The notes under the pieces are model-generated. The model worked only from the letters and a program-made list of their open reading frames with translations, did no database searches and had not been told where the DNA came from. Positions 9,923-22,460 of a stretch of DNA of 64,000 bases are shown one piece after another; positions within the stretch are counted from its first letter, which is position 1, and every line of letters begins with the position of its first letter. This DNA comes from Calditrichota bacterium (GTDB lineage Bacteria; Zhuqueibacterota; Zhuqueibacteria; Zhuqueibacterales; Geothermadaptataceae). Location: the NCBI GenBank assembly GCA_008501765.1, contig QQUE01000007.1, forward strand, positions 732,186-796,185. The letters are read 5' to 3'. Both the position numbers and the translations under genes were made by a program.

Positions 9923-12748
9923 TTATTTCAACAATAACATTTTCATACTTTGATTGAATTCCGGCGTTTCCAGGTTATAAACATAAAAACCGCTCGCAGC
10001 AGGCAGACCGAACTCATTTTTACCATCCCAGGTACTGTTGTAAAATCCAGCTTCCTGGAACCCGGCAAACAGCGTTTTTACATGCTTGCCTAAAATATTA
10101 TGAACCGTGAGCCGCACATTTCCAGCTTCCGGGAGAGCGTAACGAATATTAGTTTCCGGGTTAAATGGATTCGGTGAATTTTGCAGCAATGCATATTCAG
10201 TCGGGATAGCTGAATGCGTTTTTTCAAGTCTATTTTCGGTGGATGGTGTTTTGCGCGTCATTAGAATTTTATCCCCAACTGAATTATTGGCGTTCAAACC
10301 AACCACTTTAAAATTATCACTTTCAATATTTGCAGTCCCTTTCGCCACTTGAAAAACAAACCGGGCAGCGACACCATCTCTTTGGCTTCCCTTATTTCCA
10401 TTCTTACGGCTCAAGCCCATCCACGCAATTTTGCTTTCTGAGTCGTGCTTGCTAAAATTCAGCACATCACCCTGAAAAAGCTCACCCTGCAGGACAGAGA
10501 GCAGACGCAGTTCAGGCAATGCCTTATAATCCAATCCTAATGAAAATCCAAACAAATCGCGGGCATCCTCAATATATACTTCAAGAACAACTTCGTTTGG
10601 TTTGTCAGAATTTAAAGATTTCCTCAAATGCACTATGGCTGGATTCGCTTGTGCGAGCCCGGCTTTTCTCTTGCCGGAATAAAGTGGCTGGGTTGCATCT
10701 GTTTTCTTTTGCCAATTCAAACCAATAGCATTAATATCACCCTGATCAACAAATCCATTTCCATCGGCATCAGCGAATGTTATTTTTAAGTTTTCCCAGG
10801 GAATGGCATTTTTTCGGTTCCAAATTATATCCGACTCCGATCGGGCATAGCCACTTTTTCCCCAAAATTGTCCCAAACGCAGCATGTCGGCCTCATCGAC
10901 AACACCGTCATTATTTGTATCTCCGGGCCAGACTGGCAATCCGACAAATTTAATCGAATCACATTCTGCACGCAGGTAAATCGGATTCCCATCGATATCA
11001 CGGGCGTAAAGATTTCGCAGCGCATATTGTACGTCCGTATCAAAGGGAACTGTGCTCAACGAGCGGCATTTTATTTTTACAACTTCACCGCGTCCGGAAG
11101 CACCGGCTATGGCATTTTTAGCTCGAATTGTGACATTTATGCCCCTGTTATTTTCGAGTAACTGGCCTTTTAAAACTGGTTCAGCTCCCAAAAACGAGCC
11201 TGGTAGCAAGCTGGTTTGGACTTCACCGGCAAGCTCGATTTGTTCTCCCTCAGAAAATATAAGTTCAAACCTGGTTTCATAGACATTTGAGACTGAATCG
11301 AGGACGATGCTTACATCAAATTCGTGAGTGACCAGCGCTGACTCGTCTACGACGGGAGAAATCATACCTTCAAGTTTTGGCTCCCGGAATTTCGCAATAA
11401 AAATATCAGAACTGCCGCGTGATATTAATTGATTTTTACCGAAGGTTGATTCCATTCGAAATTGACCCGTGTTGTAAACGCTGCCCGTCGAAGAGGCTGC
11501 CACGCTCCAGCCGAGATCATTGTCCGGGCCGCCCATCGCATTCGCCCAAATCACATTGCCATCATTATCGAATTTGGCGATAAAGGCATCCATTTGGCCG
11601 TTTACTTTAATTTCATGGTTACCAAATTCTGCGATGTGGCCAAAACCACCGGTCAAATATATAAATCCACGGCTATCGCACGTGACATCGTAGGCATAAT
11701 CGTTATCGCGGCCACCACCAGATTTTGCCCACAGCAACTGGCCTGCAGAGGAATACTTCGCCAGGATAACATCCCAGCCACCAACTGAGGAAATTGTGAC
11801 TCCATCTTGCTTAATCGTGCTGCCAAAGCGCCCCGCGATGACTGGATTTCCATCGGAAGCGACTGCTACGGAAAACGCTCTATCGCTGCTGTAGCTTCCC
11901 AGGGTTTGCACCCATTTTGTCTCGCCGGAATTGTCAAAAGCTGCCAGAAAAATTTGAGACGCATGGCTTGTATCATATGTTGTTGCATGATTTCCAGCCA
12001 TCAATTTCCCATTTGTAAAACCAGTCACATAAATTCGACCGTTATCATCCGTGGCGATTCCGTAGGCTCGATTCTCGGCATCACCGGAGATTGTTTTCAC
12101 CCAGCGCAACTCACCGGATGGCGCGTACTTTACCACAAAAACATCGGAACTGCCAGCCGATTGTACACTGTCGTTGTCAAAAAATGCCTTCCCCCAAAAC
12201 CACCCCGTCGCGACATAATCACCATCTGAGGAAACAGCGACATCGTACCCCTGATCAAATCCATGGCTGCCACTGTTTTTTGCCCACAGCAAGTTACCAT
12301 GCGGGCCAAATTTTGCGATAAAAAAATCGTTATTAGTGCCGCTTCTGGCAATCAATTTTGTTCCCGAAATTTTCAGTTCTTTATCGACTGCACCCACGAG
12401 AATACTATTTCCAAAAGCATCGGTTGCCACGCCGTAGGGTCGGTCATTGCCAATTCCGCCGCCATAATTCATCCATTTAAGAACACCATTGGAATCCAGT
12501 TTCGCGATAAAAATATCCTTGTCCCCCTGGCTGGTTATTCCGTAATTCTCGATCAGAAATTCATTGGCATATCGCCCGGTGATAATAATATCCCCGTACT
12601 TGTCAACTACCAAACAATTCCCGATATCCTCACCCGTGCTCGCAGCTTGCTTTACCCAGACATCATTGGCAGTTTGTGCAAAAGAAAGGCTTGTACACAA
12701 GGCGATTGAATAAGCCACCATGACAATTTTAATTATTTTTCTATCCAT
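9923..12748 (-). CDS. Secreted SBBP beta-propeller/cohesin/dockerin protein with T9SS type A sorting domain
   Basis: A 941-residue exported protein. It has a signal peptide (about 1-25). Residues 30-450 hold seven or eight repeats of the W...G(G/S)...(N/D)(D/R)(A/G)Y pattern, each with an AKF/AKY strand, typical of SBBP beta-propeller repeats. A cohesin-like domain follows at about 460-605. Two calcium-loop motifs of dockerin type come next: DTNNDGVVDEAD and DADGNGFVDQGD. A second cohesin-like domain lies at about 700-810. The C-terminal 85 residues begin NSPNPFNPETNIRYALPE and contain GFYVYNLET, a type A T9SS sorting domain. It is the last gene of the cluster, 2 bp after the SprF-like gene. 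It is probably displayed on or released from the surface; the binding target is unknown. Confidence 0.88.
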   Translation of the reverse strand: MDRKIIKIVMVAYSIALCTSLSFAQTANDVWVKQAASTGEDIGNCLVVDKYGDIIITGRYANEFLIENYGITSQGDKDIFIAKLDSNGVLKWMNYGGGIGNDRPYGVATDAFGNSILVGAVDKELKISGTKLIARSGTNNDFFIAKFGPHGNLLWAKNSGSHGFDQGYDVAVSSDGDYVATGWFWGKAFFDNDSVQSAGSSDVFVVKYAPSGELRWVKTISGDAENRAYGIATDDNGRIYVTGFTNGKLMAGNHATTYDTSHASQIFLAAFDNSGETKWVQTLGSYSSDRAFSVAVASDGNPVIAGRFGSTIKQDGVTISSVGGWDVILAKYSSAGQLLWAKSGGGRDNDYAYDVTCDSRGFIYLTGGFGHIAEFGNHEIKVNGQMDAFIAKFDNDGNVIWANAMGGPDNDLGWSVAASSTGSVYNTGQFRMESTFGKNQLISRGSSDIFIAKFREPKLEGMISPVVDESALVTHEFDVSIVLDSVSNVYETRFELIFSEGEQIELAGEVQTSLLPGSFLGAEPVLKGQLLENNRGINVTIRAKNAIAGASGRGEVVKIKCRSLSTVPFDTDVQYALRNLYARDIDGNPIYLRAECDSIKFVGLPVWPGDTNNDGVVDEADMLRLGQFWGKSGYARSESDIIWNRKNAIPWENLKITFADADGNGFVDQGDINAIGLNWQKKTDATQPLYSGKRKAGLAQANPAIVHLRKSLNSDKPNEVVLEVYIEDARDLFGFSLGLDYKALPELRLLSVLQGELFQGDVLNFSKHDSESKIAWMGLSRKNGNKGSQRDGVAARFVFQVAKGTANIESDNFKVVGLNANNSVGDKILMTRKTPSTENRLEKTHSAIPTEYALLQNSPNPFNPETNIRYALPEAGNVRLTVHNILGKHVKTLFAGFQEAGFYNSTWDGKNEFGLPAASGFYVYNLETPEFNQSMKMLLLK

Positions 12749-12750
12749 AA

Positions 12751-14454
12751 TTACAACCCTAAAACTAAATCAATACGGTGAGATGCGCTATTCATAACTG
12801 GTTCTACTCTATTTACTTTGATATTCACTTCACGTTTAAATTTGGAAACGTGCAGTTTTTGATAGGGTGAACGATGTAAGTTTCCCCGCTTACCTCGCCA
12901 CTCCAAATAATAAAAATAATTACCGGCGTCCAGCAGTTTTCCGGAGTTTGATTTCCAATCCCAATGAATATACTCCGGCAAATCATACTGGCCGCGAAAC
13001 TCTTTCAAAACGGTTCCGTCGCTGGCCATAATATTTAACTGCCAATCCGAAAGAGCGACAATCCTGTTGTATTTGCGTTTTATTCTCGGTTCAATAACGA
13101 ATTTATTGTTGTTCTGCGACAACGAAAATGCTGATGAAGCGTGTCCATTGGTTTCTGCTCTTACATATTTTTCTGCGTAGCCGTACTCCAAACGATTTTT
13201 CGCGATGCCGTAAACTGCATTTAAATGATGTACAAAAGCGCTGGCAACGCGTTTCTTCTTCTGGCGCACGATGACGCGCAATGTCAAAAGGTTATCCTCA
13301 TTAAGGTGCGTCGTCAGATTTTTTATCAAACCGCCATAATTGACAAGGTAAGCATTAAAATCGATTTCAGGAATTGGTGGTACACTATCCAAAACGACAA
13401 ATCGATAATAAGCCTCATCCGGTCGTGTATCAAATCGTGCTTGCTCAATCAGCTCCTTCGGCTCCGTTGAATCGGCTTCAGAAAGAACGTTTTCAAAAAA
13501 ATGTTGCACACGGCGCTCAGAAATACGCAGTGAATCATAGACAGCATTTACAGCATATTCAATTTGCGGTATTTTACCAAACCGATAAACAAAACTAACC
13601 CGGTGGGAGCCGCTGCTAAACTGATTTAATTCAGTGAGTGCATAGGCAAACTGATAATCCACGCTCATTTTGTTGGAAATATACAACTGGCCACCAACAA
13701 GATACCGGCCACCGTGAAAGCCCGTGCGCAGCAATCCAACGCCCTGATATCCCGATGCGATTTCCAAAACAGGCTCGAACTGCTGCCCTGTCATTCGAAA
13801 TCCCAGCGTCGACTCAAAAAGTCTATGTTTATAAAGAACAGCGCCATTTGTAATGAGCGGCAGGTTTTCACCGGAATTTGACAATGAAACATCCGGTTGG
13901 TTTAATTGATCAAATGACAATCCATAGCGCCACTGATCACTATGCTGATATATAAATCCAACGCCTAAATTCGGCACGAAAACAGAGTTTCCGGAAGAAA
14001 AAACCGGATCATTCTCATCGATCAATTGAAATTTGGATCGATCAAAACTCTCGTTGATAAATCCAATATTTACCCCCCAGGCAAAACTGTCAAATACTCG
14101 AAATGAAGCCGTGATACCCAGTCGACTCTGGGTAAAAATCGGTGTTTTCAGGTAATCACCCTGCAATCCAAAACCAATATTCAATCCCCGAACTTCCGGA
14201 ACTGATATTTGAAACATATCATGTCGCAAACCGAATGCATTATTTTTCAAAAAACCGGAATGCAATGCATGTGTACCGACAATTAGCTGTTCATCCTGAA
14301 AATTAATTATCGCCGGATTGACCGATGCGCTGCCGGGATGATAAAAATCAACTGACGTTGAGGTATTCACATCCTGGCTGCGGGCTACGGCCAGCCAGCC
14401 GATGGTAAAAAATCCAATAATTACAAATAGAAATCGATTGAAAAACACTGACAT
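12751..14454 (-). CDS. PorP/SprF-like outer-membrane barrel with C-terminal FlgD-like region
   Basis: SprF/PorP proteins are outer-membrane barrels that accompany T9SS cargo with type B sorting domains. This product opens with a signal peptide, then DFYHPGSASVNPAI, the family's usual motif of a lipid-exposed start, and alternating strands to about residue 300 that end in HRVSFVYRFGK. It is nearly twice the usual PorP length. Residues 300-440 hold a helical region spaced like a degenerate OmpA domain, and residues 460-540 resemble a FlgD Ig-like domain (LLDAGNYFYYLEW). I start it at the ATG at 14454, after GGGAATTG, not at the TTG six bases earlier. It lies between two sorting-domain proteins, which fits a role in their export or anchoring. 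Confidence 0.78.
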   Translation of the reverse strand: MSVFFNRFLFVIIGFFTIGWLAVARSQDVNTSTSVDFYHPGSASVNPAIINFQDEQLIVGTHALHSGFLKNNAFGLRHDMFQISVPEVRGLNIGFGLQGDYLKTPIFTQSRLGITASFRVFDSFAWGVNIGFINESFDRSKFQLIDENDPVFSSGNSVFVPNLGVGFIYQHSDQWRYGLSFDQLNQPDVSLSNSGENLPLITNGAVLYKHRLFESTLGFRMTGQQFEPVLEIASGYQGVGLLRTGFHGGRYLVGGQLYISNKMSVDYQFAYALTELNQFSSGSHRVSFVYRFGKIPQIEYAVNAVYDSLRISERRVQHFFENVLSEADSTEPKELIEQARFDTRPDEAYYRFVVLDSVPPIPEIDFNAYLVNYGGLIKNLTTHLNEDNLLTLRVIVRQKKKRVASAFVHHLNAVYGIAKNRLEYGYAEKYVRAETNGHASSAFSLSQNNNKFVIEPRIKRKYNRIVALSDWQLNIMASDGTVLKEFRGQYDLPEYIHWDWKSNSGKLLDAGNYFYYLEWRGKRGNLHRSPYQKLHVSKFKREVNIKVNRVEPVMNSASHRIDLVLGL

Positions 14455-14564
14455 GTACAATTCCCATGTTCACCTTTTTGCTATCATCACTACTCCACAT
14501 CGTGCACAGTATTCCTTGTTGAGAGCAAAATTTTTAAAAACAGCACGACTAAATTAAATAAATT

Positions 14565-16754
14565 TCATTTGGCCAGTCCAATCACACCTGTGGCCAGGGT
14601 TTTATCTTTCGTTTTAACGACATATAAATAAGCCCCGGGTTTAAGTTCATTTCCGTCATCATCGCGGCCATACCAAATCAATGGATTTGCAAGTTTTGCT
14701 ATTTGCCGCCCGGCGATATCGAAAATAAAAACAGTGCCTGCCTGTGTTTTAAATTCCGGAAAATCGAACAGGACCTGATCATTGAAACCATCCCCATTGG
14801 GTGTAAACGGATTTGGCATTACCGGGGGCGGCGGCTGTAAAATTTTCAATTTCACCTCAGCCATCCGCTGGATATTATAAACTTGTGCAAGAACTTGAAA
14901 ACTGAACTCGCCAACGCGAACCCCGGTGGCAGTACGGATGTTTAAAACAGCTTCTTCGCCCAAATTCAATTGCTGTGGATTCAGAGAATATTCGAGGTCA
15001 GTGATTCCTGCAAGTCCGTTGATTTGCAAATGCACCGACTCCTCCGGTGCATTGTCTGCAGAAATTGAAATATAAAACCGGGTAGAGTCACCACGGTGTA
15101 TTTCTGCATAAATCGGTGAAACGAGCAAGGAAAAATCATGATAAGCCTGAACATTAAGCCGAAATGGTTTGCTATCCTGGAAATCAGTTGCTGTAGCGAC
15201 AATATCAAAATCATAGTCCCCGTATTTCAACGCACTATCTGCCGCAAAAACGATCCCTATCTCACCCTGCCCCGAAAGAGATGCAGGCGTAAATTGAGCC
15301 GTTACAAGTGAGGGATGGTTACGCAACGTTAACTGAATCGAATTCGAATACGCGGGATTGGTCAATATCCTGGCATTAGCGTGGACAGTTTTTCCGGCGG
15401 TAACCGTTGCAGAATCGGCTGCCAGCTCGAGATAAAATTGATTCTTCTCTTTGATACCAATTTCGTGTGACCCCGGTAAAAGCCATATTTTGTTACCCTG
15501 GCTGTCCTTCGCCGCGAGTTCCTGCAGCTGAAAAGTAATTCTGGTACCTTCCGGTGTCGCGAGACGGGTATTAAAAAGCAGCCGCACCATGTCTCCGGAA
15601 CCACCAAAACCGGCTGTATTATTCTTGTTTTGCAATTGAATTTTCAACGCGCCATTTTCCAATCGTTCAAATTTGTCCAGCAGGAACATATCAGAAAAAG
15701 GTGGTAGCAGGCTAACATCATTTAACTGCGGTTGAATTACAAAATCATTGTTCAAAGTATTGAGAGTAAATTCTAAATACACGAGGTCTTCGACAATTTT
15801 ACTGGCCTCTCCGATAGCAATATTTACGGCAAAAGGTTCGGTTGAATAATAATCCGAAGAGTCTGTGCGGACAGTTATTGGAACCATCGCAACAGAAATA
15901 TGGGACGTTACTGTATGCGATAAATTTCCCGAGCTGCCGGTAAAATTAACCTCGTATTGCGCTGGCGAAATCTGTTCACTCGCGCTCACAGTGACTATCG
16001 CCGTGTCCCCCGGGAGAATTTCGATCGGCTGAATGTTCACATTCAGCCCCGCAATAAATGGTGAATAATTTAATTTAACCGGATTATAAAATCCGCCAAC
16101 GCTCGTTGCTGTTAAAATGAACTCAACTGTTTGTTCCTTATTCAATTCAACAGCATCGGGCGTGACCTTCAAAACAAAATTCTCAGGCTGAACTGCGATT
16201 ACTTCTGTTACCGGACTGATAAACAGCTCGATCGACTCAGCATCTTTGGTTTCCGCTTTGACATCGTAAAGCTCAAATAAGACCAGCGTGCTATCCGCGA
16301 GTAAGGTTGTGGCAGTGAATGGCAGACGCGCCACGATTCCGGCGCCGCTTACACCTTCCGCAGGATATTTTCGTGAATGCGCGATACTCACAACTCCCTG
16401 CGATTGGGCGGGAACACTCAAGAAGAGTGTTGTGTCAGGGTGCACGAGGAGATCACCCCGCATGGAATCGATATCTGTTTTCTCATTAAAAATTATTAAG
16501 TCTGTATGTGAAAAACGAAATTTGAAACTTATGCCAAAGAGCTCTGTCACTGGTTTTTCAGTAGATCCAACATGCACTTCGACCCAAAAAGGAGAGCCGG
16601 CCACAATTTTTTCCGGGGAAAGTGAAATCCACATCGGGGCAGCGAGGGAATCAGCCGTTTGCGCGGATAGGTGGAAATTAGCCAAGCTCATAAAGCTGAT
16701 TAAGCCAAATACCAGGCATTTAATAATTCGAGCTTTTATAAAAAAAGAGAGCAT
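14565..16754 (-). CDS. Secreted cohesin-like/Ig-like protein with type B-like (gliding-associated) C-terminal domain
   Basis: A 729-residue exported protein with a signal peptide (about 1-31). Two cohesin-like domains lie at about 38-190 and 295-425. Two further Ig-like segments, at about 195-290 and 430-640, use pairs such as PDAVELNKEQTVEFIL, common in bacterial surface adhesins. The C-terminus begins PNPFTPNGDGFNDQVLF and ends in a GxYLYVVKT-like strand. This is the CHU_C/FlgD-like type B T9SS signal, whose export usually needs an SprF partner; an SprF-like gene follows 110 bp downstream. It has no catalytic motif. It probably has an adhesive or structural role on the cell surface. It belongs to the same minus-strand cluster as the ExbB/ExbD genes. 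Confidence 0.82.
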   Translation of the reverse strand: MLSFFIKARIIKCLVFGLISFMSLANFHLSAQTADSLAAPMWISLSPEKIVAGSPFWVEVHVGSTEKPVTELFGISFKFRFSHTDLIIFNEKTDIDSMRGDLLVHPDTTLFLSVPAQSQGVVSIAHSRKYPAEGVSGAGIVARLPFTATTLLADSTLVLFELYDVKAETKDAESIELFISPVTEVIAVQPENFVLKVTPDAVELNKEQTVEFILTATSVGGFYNPVKLNYSPFIAGLNVNIQPIEILPGDTAIVTVSASEQISPAQYEVNFTGSSGNLSHTVTSHISVAMVPITVRTDSSDYYSTEPFAVNIAIGEASKIVEDLVYLEFTLNTLNNDFVIQPQLNDVSLLPPFSDMFLLDKFERLENGALKIQLQNKNNTAGFGGSGDMVRLLFNTRLATPEGTRITFQLQELAAKDSQGNKIWLLPGSHEIGIKEKNQFYLELAADSATVTAGKTVHANARILTNPAYSNSIQLTLRNHPSLVTAQFTPASLSGQGEIGIVFAADSALKYGDYDFDIVATATDFQDSKPFRLNVQAYHDFSLLVSPIYAEIHRGDSTRFYISISADNAPEESVHLQINGLAGITDLEYSLNPQQLNLGEEAVLNIRTATGVRVGEFSFQVLAQVYNIQRMAEVKLKILQPPPPVMPNPFTPNGDGFNDQVLFDFPEFKTQAGTVFIFDIAGRQIAKLANPLIWYGRDDDGNELKPGAYLYVVKTKDKTLATGVIGLAK

Positions 16755-16865: not shown

Positions 16866-17474
16866 CTATTTTTCAAGAAAAAGTGTGTCTTTAACAGTCG
16901 TGTAGATATATACAAAATCACGGCCACCCGGTATCATCGCCGGTTCGTATTTTAATTTCGATTTCTCATATCCCCACATTTCAAAAACCGTCCCGTGATG
17001 CCCACGCTCAAACCAAAGTTTTATGGGCACACCTTTGTAGTTGCGGTTCAAGGTTTTTAAAAAGCCACTGAAGATACTATTTGCGGCCCGGTCGGATTCG
17101 AGCAGTTGATAAACATCAGGATCAACGTTTTCGCCGACAATTTGAAAATTGGGAGTAAATTTCCATTCATTCATCAGTCCCTGCGCTTTTGCAGAGGGAA
17201 AAATGAAATAAATGTCTTCCGACGGGTGGGTGATTGCGATATCTTTTTCTCCAAAACCATTTCCGGTCGCGTCGATTATATCAAGCTGTGTTACCAGTGT
17301 TTCCGGGATAAAAAACTCAGTTATAAAAAATTTGATGAGAGGGGCATCGACGAGAGAAACTTTCGGAACATTTATCTGCTCTATGGTGATATCGGTATCG
17401 CTCTGCGCCAGCAATGGCGTGAGTAATCCACTAAATATAAGTACAAAAATAGTTCTTTTAATATGACGCGGCAC
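16866..17474 (-). CDS. Small secreted protein of unknown function
   Basis: A 202-residue protein with a signal peptide (MPRHIKRTIFVLIFSGLL, cleavage near LLAQ). The remainder is a mixed alpha/beta domain without a motif I recognise; notable stretches are PSEDIYFIFPSAKAQG and GGRDFVYIYTTVKDTLFLE at the end. The start is a GTG at 17474 preceded by GGAG. That site overlaps the stop of the TPR lipoprotein gene 4 bp away, so the two are translationally coupled. It is probably a periplasmic or outer-membrane partner of the lipoprotein. Confidence 0.72.
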   Translation of the reverse strand: MPRHIKRTIFVLIFSGLLTPLLAQSDTDITIEQINVPKVSLVDAPLIKFFITEFFIPETLVTQLDIIDATGNGFGEKDIAITHPSEDIYFIFPSAKAQGLMNEWKFTPNFQIVGENVDPDVYQLLESDRAANSIFSGFLKTLNRNYKGVPIKLWFERGHHGTVFEMWGYEKSKLKYEPAMIPGGRDFVYIYTTVKDTLFLEK

Positions 17475-17478
17475 CGAT

Positions 17479-18996
17479 CTACTCCTTCATCGCCTTGAAT
17501 TTTAATCGCTGATAGCGGGCGTGCATTGCATCTTTATTTTTACCCAATTTCAGGTAAGCGATCGATAACAAACTATAAAGTTGGTCATGCTCGCGAATAT
17601 CGAGGGTGTTCTCATTTTTTTGAGCTAACTTGCAATGCTTCAAAACCAGCTCCGGGTTGTTCTGGACAATTTTGGCAATTTCCAGATGGCTTTTTGCTGA
17701 GCCACGCCACTGCACTGTCGTCGCCTGCAAAAAATACGCGTATGCTGCCTGCCAATCTCTGTCCTGAACTTCCTCGAGACCAAGGTTGTGGCACATAATT
17801 GCATAATCATCAAAATAGCGTGCATAAGTACTGTCGAGCGCACCCTTGTATGCGTTTCTTTTTTGATAGCGATCGATCAATTCGTGCAAGCCTTTCACAC
17901 CTTTTTCTTTATCGCCGACCCGTTGATAAGTCAGCACGCTTGCCCGCCATTCGATTTCATCGCGGGCACGTTCTGTACGCAATTTTTTCGCCAGTTTCCA
18001 GAATCCAGAAGCGGATTCTTTATAATTACCCTGGGCTTGCATTGCCAACAACTCGTCCCTTCTTTCGGAGCCGTGGATATTGCCATCGTCCCAATTTATC
18101 CAGTCAATATAACTTTGGACACTTTTTTGATTACTCTCATCCGGCGCCAGGCGCATCGCCCGATCGAGGATTGCCAGCGATGAATCGGCATTATACAACT
18201 TTGATTGCGTAACTCCCTGGTAAAAAACATAGTTGAAAAGCCGCGATGAATCGATAGCGGCCTGCGACAAATCTTCCAGAGCTGCGCCGGGTTTGTCGAT
18301 GTTTAGAAAACCGGTTTCAGTCAAAACCCGTTCAGCTTCGCAAAAGACATCATAGGCTGCTTTCCAGGCTTCAATGGCGTAGTAATTTTCTGCGAGACGC
18401 GCATAAATTGAATGATTGCCTTTATCAAGTCGAATAAGTTCTTCCAATACATAAGTTGCTTTTTCAAAATCCTTTTTCTCTTCGAACCGGGATGCACGCG
18501 AGGTGTAAACATGGGCAAGCCAGCTATGTGTTTCCGAATCAAATGGATTGAAATACAATGCTTTCTGAAAATTTTTAATGGCATCAATTAATAGTTTATC
18601 AATTCTCTCTGAAACCTTGGTTTCATCAACGTGCATGGCCGACATTTTCTGCAGTTCAGCATATGATTTTATGATTTTTGCACCGTTGTTAAACGCTTCA
18701 ATTGCAGCCAGGGAATCCCTTTTGTTCGCTGCCCGGCGCAGCTCAATGAGCTGCCACAAAGAATCGCCTTCAGCAACCCGACTGCGGCCGCGCTGCTTCA
18801 GGACCTCAGATTCCTGCTCTGCTTTCGGTTTAATAAAAAGAATCGAAGCCAGAGAATCCGCCTCCCGTGCGATGACACTATCGATGCCTGCATGAACCTT
18901 GTATTTGTTATTCCGTTTTACGGAACTGCCACCTGCACATGCCCAAAATGCAATAATTCCTATGAGGAATATTAATATGTTAATCCTATAATTCAC
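17479..18996 (-). CDS. TPR-repeat outer-membrane lipoprotein
   Basis: A 505-residue protein with a lipoprotein signal: a hydrophobic stretch IFLIGIIAFWACAGG with the lipidated Cys near residue 20. The mature protein is helical, with tetratricopeptide-type repeats in several blocks (for example at about 145-215, 255-290 and 420-500), and charged, coiled-coil-like segments at 45-110. TPR lipoproteins serve as scaffolds in outer-membrane and T9SS machines (SprE/PorW, BamD). It starts at a GTG, 18 bp after the preceding ExbD-like gene, and is followed by the small secreted protein. Its place between inner-membrane motor genes and outer-membrane genes suggests a periplasm-spanning link (inference). 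Confidence 0.82.
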   Translation of the reverse strand: MNYRINILIFLIGIIAFWACAGGSSVKRNNKYKVHAGIDSVIAREADSLASILFIKPKAEQESEVLKQRGRSRVAEGDSLWQLIELRRAANKRDSLAAIEAFNNGAKIIKSYAELQKMSAMHVDETKVSERIDKLLIDAIKNFQKALYFNPFDSETHSWLAHVYTSRASRFEEKKDFEKATYVLEELIRLDKGNHSIYARLAENYYAIEAWKAAYDVFCEAERVLTETGFLNIDKPGAALEDLSQAAIDSSRLFNYVFYQGVTQSKLYNADSSLAILDRAMRLAPDESNQKSVQSYIDWINWDDGNIHGSERRDELLAMQAQGNYKESASGFWKLAKKLRTERARDEIEWRASVLTYQRVGDKEKGVKGLHELIDRYQKRNAYKGALDSTYARYFDDYAIMCHNLGLEEVQDRDWQAAYAYFLQATTVQWRGSAKSHLEIAKIVQNNPELVLKHCKLAQKNENTLDIREHDQLYSLLSIAYLKLGKNKDAMHARYQRLKFKAMKE

Positions 18997-19014: not shown

Positions 19015-20076
19015 TCATTTACCCGTTCGTGTATTTTCCCACCAGGATAGAAATACCTGATAAAATTCGGTTGTTCGTGAATCCGAAGGTGATTCCTGGG
19101 AAGTACCAAAAGAAAAAATTCGGTTATCCTCACCCCGGTGGATGGTCCCAATGCGAAAAAAATTGCTCTGTTTTTTAAAATCTTTGTCGATGAGCAAAGT
19201 TGTCTGATTCCCTTCAATCAAACAAATCCGGATTTCAAACTGCTGCTCATGGCACGCTATATAAATTTCGAAATTCCGGTCACCAGCACGGAATCGGACA
19301 CCCGTTGTTAAATGTTCATCCGAAGCGCCCATGAACTGGCGTACGACGCCAGAAAAATCATTTGGATTTTTCTTCAACCAGGCGATTAGTTCCGGATAAA
19401 TCGGTGCAATCTTTCGAATTTGTGGCTTGATGACTATTTCTGGTGTTACCATTGGAGTCGCCGGAACATCTGGCTTAAATACTTTTTTTTTCGGTATATT
19501 TAAAGGCTTTGTCCCCGACAACTCACCTGTATTCATTATTCCCAGGCCACTTGTTTTATCAATATCCAAAATTTCATCTTCCCGGGTTGCCTGTCTTCCG
19601 GAGTTGGACTTTGGCACAATAATGCGATTACTTGATTGATTGTCGTGCGCCAGGTGTTGAAAAATCTGACCATTGTTAGAAGAACCAATTTCCAGGACTG
19701 GTGGTGCATCGATTTTCGGCAGTATCGACTGGGGTCGGCTTGGCCTGGCAAAGTGTGGTTGTTTGCGCCCGGCAAGTTGATTTTTTAAATCTGAAATATC
19801 AACTTTCTTCTCCGGAACTTGTGGAAGCAATTTATTGTCCATTACGATTTCCTTTTTGATCACCGGCTCAATGTCCATTTCTTCCGGTAAAAAGGCCAGA
19901 ATAACATCTGTTTTTACAATCGTTACATCTTCCTTAACAAGCAAATTTGTGACATTCTGTTCCGGCACTGGTGTTCCTGCCAACGCCTTATACATGAGCA
20001 GCATGATAAAAATCGTCAAACAAAAATTGACGAAATCGCTGAATCTCGAACGCGTTTTATAATTAAAGAGCGGCAT
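19015..20076 (-). CDS. Single-pass anchored periplasmic protein with ExbD/TonB-like layout
   Basis: A 353-residue protein. A short cytoplasmic N-terminus is followed by one membrane helix whose sequence SDFVNFCLTIFIMLLMY (about 13-29) mimics the ExbD/TolR helix, including an Asp near its start. A long proline-, lysine- and glutamine-rich periplasmic linker (about 50-215) follows. A folded C-terminal domain at about 220-350 shows no TonB or OmpA motif. Its start overlaps the end of the ExbD gene upstream by 14 bp, so coupling is likely. It may be a third rotor/stator-type component or a TonB-like energy transducer with a novel end domain. Confidence 0.75.
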   Translation of the reverse strand: MPLFNYKTRSRFSDFVNFCLTIFIMLLMYKALAGTPVPEQNVTNLLVKEDVTIVKTDVILAFLPEEMDIEPVIKKEIVMDNKLLPQVPEKKVDISDLKNQLAGRKQPHFARPSRPQSILPKIDAPPVLEIGSSNNGQIFQHLAHDNQSSNRIIVPKSNSGRQATREDEILDIDKTSGLGIMNTGELSGTKPLNIPKKKVFKPDVPATPMVTPEIVIKPQIRKIAPIYPELIAWLKKNPNDFSGVVRQFMGASDEHLTTGVRFRAGDRNFEIYIACHEQQFEIRICLIEGNQTTLLIDKDFKKQSNFFRIGTIHRGEDNRIFSFGTSQESPSDSRTTEFYQVFLSWWENTRTGK

Positions 20077-20467
20077 AATCGAATGCTAAATTTCTTATTA
20101 ATTCAAATTTACGACAGATGTCTATAACAGCGACCGTCGTTTGCACGGATGACTCAATATCCGGCTGGATGAAAACGAGAGTTTTGTTTTTTTGCCCGGG
20201 ATTTTTTGCCAAATATGCCTCGAAATATACTTCTAACTCCTTAAGGGATTCTGCTTTTTTCGATTTTCTGTTTTCAATGAATTCAAAACTTTCATTATTT
20301 GCGATTTTTACAACCAGGGGTGTAATTTTTTGTTTTGCAGCATCTCCTTCAACCACCGATGGCAATTTTATCAAAGCTTGCACTTTTAAATCACTTATTG
20401 AAATGAAGCCAAACAAAATGATCAACGTAATATCAATTAACCGAATTATGAATCCGCCGTTATTCAT
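20063..20467 (-). CDS. ExbD/TolR-family protein (second)
   Basis: A 134-residue protein with the ExbD layout: a short N-terminus, one membrane helix RLIDITLIILFGFISI (about 9-24) carrying the family's essential Asp near its start, and a periplasmic domain. Family members of the proton-driven Exb/Tol motors normally have this length (about 130-150). It lies 21 bp downstream of another ExbD gene and overlaps the next gene. The paired copies suggest a heteromeric ExbD dimer in the channel (inference). Confidence 0.85.
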   Translation of the reverse strand: MNNGGFIIRLIDITLIILFGFISISDLKVQALIKLPSVVEGDAAKQKITPLVVKIANNESFEFIENRKSKKAESLKELEVYFEAYLAKNPGQKNKTLVFIQPDIESSVQTTVAVIDICRKFELIRNLAFDYAAL

Positions 20468-20488: not shown

Positions 20489-20875
20489 TTATTTATCAAC
20501 TTTTTTAACATCGATCCCCTTGGGGATGTGCAACTTGTCACAAATTGCAGCAACCTGCATCGTGTAGCGAATTGGTGTATCTCTGTGCGGGCGTACTCTT
20601 ACGCGGAAATTACTACCTAACGAGGCAGCTTTCTCGGTGAGCTGAAAGAGGTATTGTTGCAATTGCTGGGTTGTATCAAGGTAAAGCCGGCCACTTCTCA
20701 GTCTGTAACGACCATCCAGAGTTATGCCAACAATAACCACTTCTTCCTGAGCCGGTGGTTGAATTGGTGTCAACTTGCTTGTTGGAAGATGAATGTCGGT
20801 TTTATCGCTCACTTCAGAAATTGAAATAAATCCAAAAAGCAGGATAAGTACCACATCAATCAACCTAATCATCAT
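20489..20875 (-). CDS. exbD: ExbD/TolR-family protein (first)
   Basis: A 128-residue ExbD-type protein. RLIDVVLILLFGFISI is the membrane helix with the conserved Asp, followed by a periplasmic domain. ExbD forms a dimer inside the ExbB pentamer and passes proton-motive force to an energy transducer. I start it at the ATG at 20875, which overlaps the ExbB stop in ATGATGATTAG. A longer reading from 20926 would add a basic stretch encoded over ExbB codons and is less likely. The overlap implies translational coupling and a fixed ratio to ExbB. Confidence 0.88.
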   Translation of the reverse strand: MMIRLIDVVLILLFGFISISEVSDKTDIHLPTSKLTPIQPPAQEEVVIVGITLDGRYRLRSGRLYLDTTQQLQQYLFQLTEKAASLGSNFRVRVRPHRDTPIRYTMQVAAICDKLHIPKGIDVKKVDK

Positions 20876-22460
20876 ACCGCCGCCGACCACGCCGTCTCTC
20901 CTCTTCTGGTGTTGCCATTGCATCAAAAATGAGTGGCATTTTTCCTAATCCCTTTGCCACGGCTGTTACTTGATTAAAACCGGGTTTTGTGCCCAGAATA
21001 TAATTGACTTCAGCAATTCCGTCCTCATCGGTCAAGGCTTCATAACGGATCTTTTCCGCAACGATAGTTGACTTCAAACGTCCCAAAAGACCATTCGTTG
21101 GAGTGCCATTTTGACTTTCAGTTATATTGCCAAATTTGCCATCACCTTTTGTTACCACAAAAGAAACTTCATGTTTGGGGATTGGATTATTAAAGGAATC
21201 GTAAACACGCATCGAAAACGGGTGCTCCAAGGCTTCCCCGATTATGTCTGACTGGTGATTTCCACCAATTTGTTCAACCCGCGCAGGCGGACCCGCAGTG
21301 CCGTGAACGACAAAGGTTAATTTATCGTCTTCCTTTTCCAATACGAATGCCTGAATTCGTCGCTCACCGATATTTGAGTCAAGTTGAAAATGCGCTGTAG
21401 CTTCTCCTTTTTTGTTTGATACAGTCTGAAACCGGTTTTTTCTTCCGGGAAAATGGCCGCCATTTCCTTCCAGTTCAAACATGACATCAATCCCCTCAAG
21501 AGGGATGCCGTTCACATTGTTAATTTGCAGGGTTAGCGGCTTAATCAATGGCAATCCAACAACTGATTCCTGGTCGGTTGAACTGACTGCTTTACAATTC
21601 ATCCCTTCTTTGCTGACAGCATTGCTGTTTGGTTCGTATTTTAAGGCTGCGGCTGCCAGTGCCATGTGCATTTCATGTTCCTTATTTCCAATCATGCGCA
21701 TGCGCAGGTAATCAACAGTGTCCACAATCGCTTCGATTCGTTTGTTGAAATAATTTCCAATTTCTGTGCTGGCAAAATTAATAATTATGCTGACGATTAA
21801 GCCTAGGAGAGTGGTTATCAGGGCTATGCCCATGCCGTTCAAAATATGCTGGCTGTCCATATCGCCGCCGAAAAATGTAACGAACATACCCCATACGGTC
21901 CCGATTAGTCCTAAAGCCCCGGCAGTATCTCCTAAAAATGACATTCGGTTTTTAAATCGGCTAAAAGTATCCTCTTGTACTTTTCGAAAGCTGATTATTT
22001 CTTCCTGAAGCACTTCAACACGACCGGTGCTGTAATAAATCTCAAATAATTTCTCCATCAGGTACCCGATCAGGCATGCTTTTCGTCGTTTTAACAATTC
22101 TTGCAGATCTTCAAAACTGATTTCGTTTATGGATACATTGCCAAGATCACGTCCCGCTCTTGCGTCAAGCAAAAGCTCCGTTATTTTTTTTAGGCCCAAA
22201 AACAGAGCGGCTGCAAATATTAAAAATATGGCCCAGCGAATATTGCCACCGAGTTCGGTCAGTTCCCAAAATGATTCTATATCCTTAATTTCAAACAATT
22301 CATTTACGCTGGTTACGGCTTCATCCTTTACCGGCTGTGGTTCGACCACTTGCGTCTCAGGGGAAGTTGTTTGTGGCGCTTCAGATTGTTGAAAACCAAA
22401 AGCGTTCGAAATAAAAATTCCTATGCTTAGAATTATAACTTTATAAAATAGCCGATTCAT
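20865..22460 (-). CDS. exbB: ExbB/TolQ/MotA-type proton channel fused to two Ig-like domains
   Basis: A 531-residue protein. It has a signal-like N-terminus (1-22), a Pro/Gln/Glu-rich segment, TM1 at about 73-91, a long cytoplasmic loop, TM2 at 178-198 (GALGLIGTVWGMF) and TM3 at 209-230 (GIALITTLLGLIVSI). The paired Thr and Gly residues of the latter match ExbB/TolQ channels. Normal ExbB proteins end soon after TM3. This one continues with two Big_1/invasin-like Ig domains at about 305-390 and 395-517, and an Arg-rich tail (RRRGRRRYDD). GGAG lies 8 bp before the ATG. It is the first gene of the nine-gene minus-strand cluster. Confidence 0.9.
   Translation of the reverse strand: MNRLFYKVIILSIGIFISNAFGFQQSEAPQTTSPETQVVEPQPVKDEAVTSVNELFEIKDIESFWELTELGGNIRWAIFLIFAAALFLGLKKITELLLDARAGRDLGNVSINEISFEDLQELLKRRKACLIGYLMEKLFEIYYSTGRVEVLQEEIISFRKVQEDTFSRFKNRMSFLGDTAGALGLIGTVWGMFVTFFGGDMDSQHILNGMGIALITTLLGLIVSIIINFASTEIGNYFNKRIEAIVDTVDYLRMRMIGNKEHEMHMALAAAALKYEPNSNAVSKEGMNCKAVSSTDQESVVGLPLIKPLTLQINNVNGIPLEGIDVMFELEGNGGHFPGRKNRFQTVSNKKGEATAHFQLDSNIGERRIQAFVLEKEDDKLTFVVHGTAGPPARVEQIGGNHQSDIIGEALEHPFSMRVYDSFNNPIPKHEVSFVVTKGDGKFGNITESQNGTPTNGLLGRLKSTIVAEKIRYEALTDEDGIAEVNYILGTKPGFNQVTAVAKGLGKMPLIFDAMATPEEERRRGRRRYDD

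Follow-up and report, generated by a model that had tools for sequence, protein, structure and literature searches.

Known envelope transducers are few and comprise TonB, TolA, GldM and a group of predicted vWA proteins. In the ExbB-ExbD-TonB and TolQ-TolR-TolA systems, motor proteins of the 5:2 type with conserved Thr and Asp residues are accompanied by an adjacent gene for a transducer that combines one transmembrane (TM) helix, a linker and a C-terminal domain. In Flavobacterium, GldLM moves a surface protein along the cell surface. The proton-driven GldLM/PorLM motor serves SprA, PorP/SprF and the type B surface proteins of type IX secretion (PMC8986121), and in characterized Bacteroidota PorP/SprF-like proteins bind, hold and export proteins of the latter type (PMC9143113, PMC12618676), twin cysteines tying SprF to GldK (PMC12635249). 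The AglRQS motor of Myxococcus xanthus, composed of one TolQ-type and two ExbD/TolR-type proteins, powers the envelope-spanning AglRQS-Glt gliding machine, whose outer-membrane partners are the Glt proteins (PMC3169522). The vWA transducers, encoded with a TPR protein, one TolQ and two different TolRs, have a TonB layout with a non-TonB C-terminal domain, which adopts a vWA fold with two Rossmann folds, and their TM helix carries the SHLS motif (PMC12204202).

The gene cluster described here lies in a window of 64,000 nucleotides (the whole stretch of DNA that was analyzed) from a Calditrichota genome and encodes an ExbB, two ExbDs and a third membrane protein, which we propose to be a force transducer. 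The conserved motor residues and the adjacent, single-helix transducer gene are shared with ExbB-ExbD-TonB and TolQ-TolR-TolA; in contrast to both, the module has two distinct ExbDs, a C-terminal domain with no sequence relationship to TonB_C, third proteins that mostly lack the His of SHLS, and a linkage to genes for PorP/SprF, a TPR protein and an exported protein of 202 aa (U202). The vWA transducer group provides the nearest published arrangement, but the third protein carries a small domain (two helices, six strands and a helix) and, in most members, no SHLS motif. Likewise, the PorP/SprF link, which by inference makes the module a GldLM-like servant of SprA and type B proteins, is combined with motor proteins different from GldL and GldM, and in contrast to AglRQS-Glt the outer-membrane partners would be of the PorP/SprF type. 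The linkage of a barrel gene to a CHU_C surface protein gene is as described for PorP/SprF-type B anchoring (PMC9143113, PMC12618676, PMC12635249), but the barrels of the module have a ~270-aa extension, lack the twin Cys of the SprF C-tail and are accompanied by a dedicated ExbBD motor.

Organization of the Gene Cluster

Nine genes follow each other on the minus strand with overlaps or short gaps and, therefore, likely form a single operon. It starts with a gene for an ExbB/TolQ/MotA-type pentamer subunit of 531 aa (20865..22460; PF01618 5.1e-13, PF02369 1e-9), which overlaps by 11 bp with the gene for ExbD1 (128 aa, 20489..20875; PF02472 1.9e-9), a protein starting at the helix MMIRLIDVVLILLFGFISIS. 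After a gap of 21 bp comes the gene for ExbD2 (134 aa, 20063..20467; PF02472 2.1e-9) with the helix MNNGGFIIRLIDITLIILFGFISIS, and this gene overlaps by 14 bp with that of the third protein (353 aa, 19015..20076). The original prediction had placed two ExbD genes within 19015..20467; both are real (PF02472, 2e-9 each), but the first of them (20489..20875) falls outside that interval.

Downstream of the third gene, the operon continues with a TPR protein of 505 aa (17479..18996, minus strand, after 18 bp) with a lipoprotein-like N-terminus (FWAC) and weak TPR matches, and with U202 (16866..17474, minus strand, after 4 bp), an exported protein without a Pfam or NCBIfam family. The next gene (14565..16754, minus strand, after 111 bp) encodes an exported protein with a C-terminal CHU_C domain, i.e., the type B sorting domain of type IX secretion (PF13585 2.4e-8, above cut-off; TIGR04131 7e-7, under its cut-off). 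It is followed after 104 bp by a gene for an outer-membrane barrel with a C-terminal extension of ~270 aa (12751..14460, minus strand), assigned to the PorP/SprF type by PF11751 (2.3e-11) and matching TIGR03519 at 3.7e-16, which is under the cut-off of that model. The probable last gene of the operon (9923..12748, minus strand, 2 bp past porP) encodes a probable surface protein with an SBBP repeat, a dockerin and an FlgD_ig C-terminus. The TPR lipoprotein, U202, CHU_C and PorP/SprF genes, which did not figure in the original prediction, suggest a target for the motor.

Motor Subunits

The window ExbB has a signal peptide, TM1 (~74-92), TM2/TM3 (~173-235) and, toward the C-terminus, two Big_1-like Ig domains. 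In addition to the PF01618 match, it contains the pore-lining Thr residues of TM2 and TM3 expected of a MotA/TolQ/ExbB protein; the corresponding motifs, GLxGTVWGM and ALxTT, are kept among homologues and read GLIGTVWGM and ALITTLLG in the window. The weak similarity of this ExbB to ZorA (5.6e-5) is the one observation in favor of a Zorya-type defence system, which we consider extremely improbable: neither a ZorB-like OmpA protein nor a nuclease or helicase was recognized in the operon, and the other seven proteins had no PADLOC match, so that the combination of ZorA, ZorB and an effector was not found.

By standard ExbB topology the C-terminus would be cytoplasmic, an unusual site for the two Big_1-like Ig domains that end the window ExbB (20865..22460). 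In five Balneolales loci (L110:7073, L111:3001, L107:4553, L108:5337 and L105:5093), exbB stops just past 10 or 11 consecutive A residues, and the Ig domains resume in the -1 frame, which is open from upstream of the A run and encodes an Ig ORF without a signal peptide; exbB and the Ig domains are fused and unbroken in L101, L102 and L104. The split Balneolales genes are a candidate case of programmed slippage or frameshift, with assembly error as the alternative.

ExbD1 and ExbD2 both combine PF02472 with the TM Asp of the ExbD/TolR family, and an Arg-x-x-Asp motif precedes the helix in all 97 homologues (47/47 for ExbD1 and 50/50 for ExbD2), including two outside the search pattern that read RF[IV]DL and were counted as carriers. 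In a phylogenetic tree the two proteins separate across phyla by their position in the operon, with 46 of 47 sequences in the ExbD1 group (support 0.997) and 48 of 50 in the ExbD2 group (support 0.514). Given these two positional groups and the pairing wherever the motor is linked, one ExbD1 and one ExbD2 per motor would be the natural reading. Paired ExbDs in themselves are not new, as they are encoded by the same genome, by AglRQS (PMC3169522) and by the motors beside vWA transducers (PMC12204202). The source genome contains eight TonB_C matches, several of them directly after exbD pairs, as well as exbB-exbD-exbD-tonB operons; ExbD pairs are, therefore, ordinary in this genome, and the third protein fills the TonB slot.

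The Third Protein

By hydropathy and composition, the third protein consists of a single N-terminal TM helix (hydrophobic core aa 15-33, 19978..20034, minus strand), a charged, Pro-containing linker (9.8% Pro, in accord with the original prediction) and a C-terminal domain, which is the TonB/TolA layout. The membrane helix strings quoted in that prediction are all present in the sequence; the proposal that the channel Asp is kept in all three did not survive a comparison of homologues. In the window, Asp14 immediately precedes the hydrophobic core, and it is kept in the same-genus genome G001, but N, R, K, Q or S occupies this position in most other relatives. Among 56 third-protein homologues, an acid is found within the 19-aa core in one, an RxxD-like arrangement near the core start in five (including the window protein and the same-genus L042), and an acid at most 3 residues ahead of the core in 21. 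The third protein also lacks any Pfam match along with the conserved TM Asp expected of ExbD/TolR proteins, and its assignment as an ExbD paralogue was rejected on the counts of 1/56 (core acid) and 5/56 (RxxD-like).

These data bear directly on the possibility that the third protein supplies a third ExbD-like channel helix inside the ExbB ring, much as a second vWA family has been proposed to take a place there (PMC12204202). The R-x-x-D ahead of the helix in the window protein and a few homologues (5/56) would fit such a role; with the Asp not kept across the family and an acid in the core of 1/56 homologues, conservation argues that the third helix is not a channel helix, and two complete ExbDs are already encoded alongside. 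We thus regard a third channel helix as very unlikely.

The SHLS His of TonB and TolA is absent from the window helix and from most third proteins, and several TonB_C proteins of the source genome lack it as well. In three loci of one genus (L048, L049 and L086), the third gene follows immediately on porP, neither exbB nor exbD being adjacent, and the helix encoded here contains a mid-helix His like that of TonB (e.g., ASVLHGTMLVAL); these three related sequences fit a TonB-like transducer using a general motor. Many homologues have a short conserved stretch at the linker start (EINWTRF, QINLTRF, EVRELMKLSF and similar), where the motor box of TonB and TolA is situated (PMC12204202), the likeness being one of position only. 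A PDB sequence match to DotF (E 0.067) was discarded, as it covers profile positions 9-126, i.e., the helix and linker, outside the C-terminal domain.

The C-terminal domain of ~130 aa (aa 212-353 as modelled, 19018..19443, minus strand) is marked by invariant W, D, G, FY, F and SWW positions and by the signature EFYQ[IV]FLSWW. It forms a family of its own by sequence: Pfam gave no accepted match, TonB_C included, in 20 third-protein members, no NCBIfam model came near its cut-off in 33 members of the domain, and a PDB sequence search found no relative. Weak NCBIfam matches of single domains to unrelated enzymes (best 1.8e-4, in 3/33) were taken as chance. An AlphaFold2 model of the domain (142 residues, 33 sequences) is confident (pLDDT 87.7, pTM 0.84) and predicts two helices (H13-25 and H32-38), six consecutive strands and a long C-terminal helix (H121-140), without the helix-strand alternation of a Rossmann-type vWA domain. 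A Foldseek search of the PDB with this model returned nothing significant (best E 0.2), and the best VIA-align scores (Z up to 5.5; rmsd 3.3 over 88 residues) involve the unrelated folds p32, capping protein and VtrC. Z values of this size are to be expected even when no true relative exists, and the model is not taken as evidence of a new fold.

An ordinary TonB with a diverged C-terminal domain, in an operon that would then be a TonB system for a TonB-dependent transporter, would explain why the layout and operon slot are the same as for TonB and why exbD pairs precede TonB_C proteins elsewhere in the source genome. It is nevertheless distinctly unlikely. The absence of a TonB_C match in the 20 members and the hhalign probability of 0.05% against seven TonB_C domains of the same genome led us to reject a TonB_C assignment by sequence, as the original prediction had anticipated. 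The predicted order of secondary structure also appears to differ from that of the TonB C-terminal domain, and instead of a TonB-dependent receptor, which was not recognized in the operon, the linked genes are those of PorP, TPR and U202 proteins.

Conservation Across Phyla

Homologues were gathered from relatives and GTDB genomes (35 loci from KSB1, Calditrichota/Caldithrix, Balneolales, Rhodothermales and Gemmatimonadota), and a total of 58 distinct loci were compared, with denominators varying by item. Of 82 genomes of the phylum, 31 encode the third protein, which is also present in other phyla, and loci with the order exbB-exbD1-exbD2-third-TPR-U202 were found in KSB1, Calditrichota, Balneolales, Rhodothermales and Gemmatimonadota. 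The exbD1-exbD2-third genes are contiguous in 52 of 57 loci, ExbB is encoded upstream in 17 of the 18 with enough sequence, a TPR gene directly follows the third gene in 47/50, and U202 is found downstream in 38/41. The module adjoins genes for a PorP/SprF barrel and a type B (CHU_C) protein in the majority of loci from KSB1, Calditrichota and Balneolales (overall, same-strand PorP in 35/43 loci and CHU_C in 30/43). Compared over 38 loci, the six core proteins have tree distances that are correlated at r 0.74-0.92 (permutations <=0.29), a correlation that partly reflects species descent. The module occurs in several copies in some genomes (the source genome has a second one at C18, L041) and is absent from many relatives.

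Some variation accompanies this core. In L070, L060, L072, L077 and L078, the third gene and U202 are separated by at least three tandem TPR paralogues. The Gemmatimonadota homologues of U202 are ~600 aa long and contain EF-hand-like repeats (L103:12689-14536). Fold searches with U202 itself were unconvincing (Foldseek best E 0.8; VIA-align best Z 4.8, for 51 residues aligned to a phage protein). One Rhodothermales copy (L115:48-1853) lies within a few kb of a T4SS coupling protein of the TraG/TraD type and DUF4402 proteins, in what is perhaps a mobile region.

No PorP or CHU_C protein was recognized close to the examined Gemmatimonadota and Rhodothermales copies; the core stays together without PorP in Gemmatimonadota and, less completely, in Rhodothermales. 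This persistence, and the fact that TPR genes adjoin the motors with vWA transducers too (PMC12204202), would be expected of a Tol-Pal- or PorE-like motor stabilizing the envelope, with the TPR lipoprotein as the analogue of CpoB or PorE and with PorP and CHU_C as mere frequent neighbours. Such a motor is an unlikely, though still substantial, alternative, as Pal and TolB were not recognized in the operon, the presence of several copies per genome and the absence from many relatives tell against a housekeeping role, and PorP and CHU_C are strongly linked to the module in KSB1, Calditrichota and Balneolales. PorP and CHU_C cannot be the only targets of the motor, given the Gemmatimonadota and Rhodothermales copies without them nearby, and another role at the outer membrane is possible.

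Type IX Secretion Context

SprA_N was found in 59 of 60 genomes (the source genome and 59 relatives), including 28/28 carriers of the third protein, and SprA in 13/13 further carriers, i.e., in all 41 carrier genomes checked. GldM (PF12081) was not found above cut-off in the source genome and its 59 relatives, nor in 12 carriers outside the class, and was undetected in any of the 41 carrier genomes. The same model detected GldM in 36 of 148 Bacteroidota genomes, with the two third-protein carriers of this sample not among them. One GldM candidate (genome G052, E 4.7e-4) was rejected because its ORF is unlike GldM and located beside ribosomal protein genes. Across the class of the source genome, SprA (59/60) and the lack of GldM above cut-off (0/60) are observed with or without the module; as non-carriers too have SprA and lack GldM, the module is not a general replacement of GldLM.

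A long-frame PorP is encoded by 26 of 28 carriers vs. 2 of 32 non-carriers (60 genomes, p 2e-12), an association that is partly circular because porP sits inside the same gene cluster. A twin Cys at the C-tail, through which SprF forms a disulfide to GldK (PMC12635249), was not observed in 40 PorP sequences. Among open-access journal articles, our literature search found none on type IX secretion in connection with KSB1 or Calditrichota.

Discussion

The module is real and widely conserved, and from its composition we infer that the third protein represents a new type of transducer. In this respect the main lines of the original prediction, a heterodimer of ExbDs plus a new energy transducer, have stood (two ExbD groups, the TonB slot and an unclassified domain), with the exception of a third helix sharing the channel Asp. 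The explanation that we consider fairly probable is that these genes encode a proton-driven ExbB/ExbD trans-envelope motor with a dedicated, unclassified transducer, whose likely target is surface proteins anchored by PorP/SprF. Motors of this kind are known; neither the transducer domain nor its PorP/SprF link appears to have been described.

A possible mechanism can be outlined by analogy to known ExbBD/TolQR structures, which are the basis for both the subunit ratio (5:1:1) and the docking proposed here. Five ExbB subunits would probably surround one ExbD1 and one ExbD2, the Asp residues of which would carry protons past the ExbB threonines. The single helix of the third protein may dock on ExbB in a TonB- or TolA-like manner, with its linker contacting the ExbDs, spanning the periplasm and allowing the C-terminal domain to hand force to outer-membrane partners. 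The likeliest partners would be products of the same operon, namely the TPR lipoprotein, U202 and, in loci that encode it, the PorP/SprF barrel. The barrel presumably anchors a type B (CHU_C) surface protein that has left the cell by way of SprA, and the motor could serve to load and display this protein or, as with GldLM, to move it along the surface.

Overall, the small repertoire of envelope transducers gains a proposed member with an unclassified C-terminal domain, which is conserved in several phyla and has its set place next to two ExbDs. Combined with the undetected GldM, the PorP/SprF link raises the question of what powers type IX surface proteins outside the well-studied Bacteroidota. 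A tentative answer, which we regard as possible rather than probable, is that type B adhesins held by PorP/SprF are moved or exported, in the SprA-containing, GldLM-less KSB1, Calditrichota and Balneolales, by an ExbB/ExbD1/ExbD2 motor acting through a new transducer domain. If true, this would mean an independent way of energizing type IX surface proteins and, possibly, a further gliding motor.
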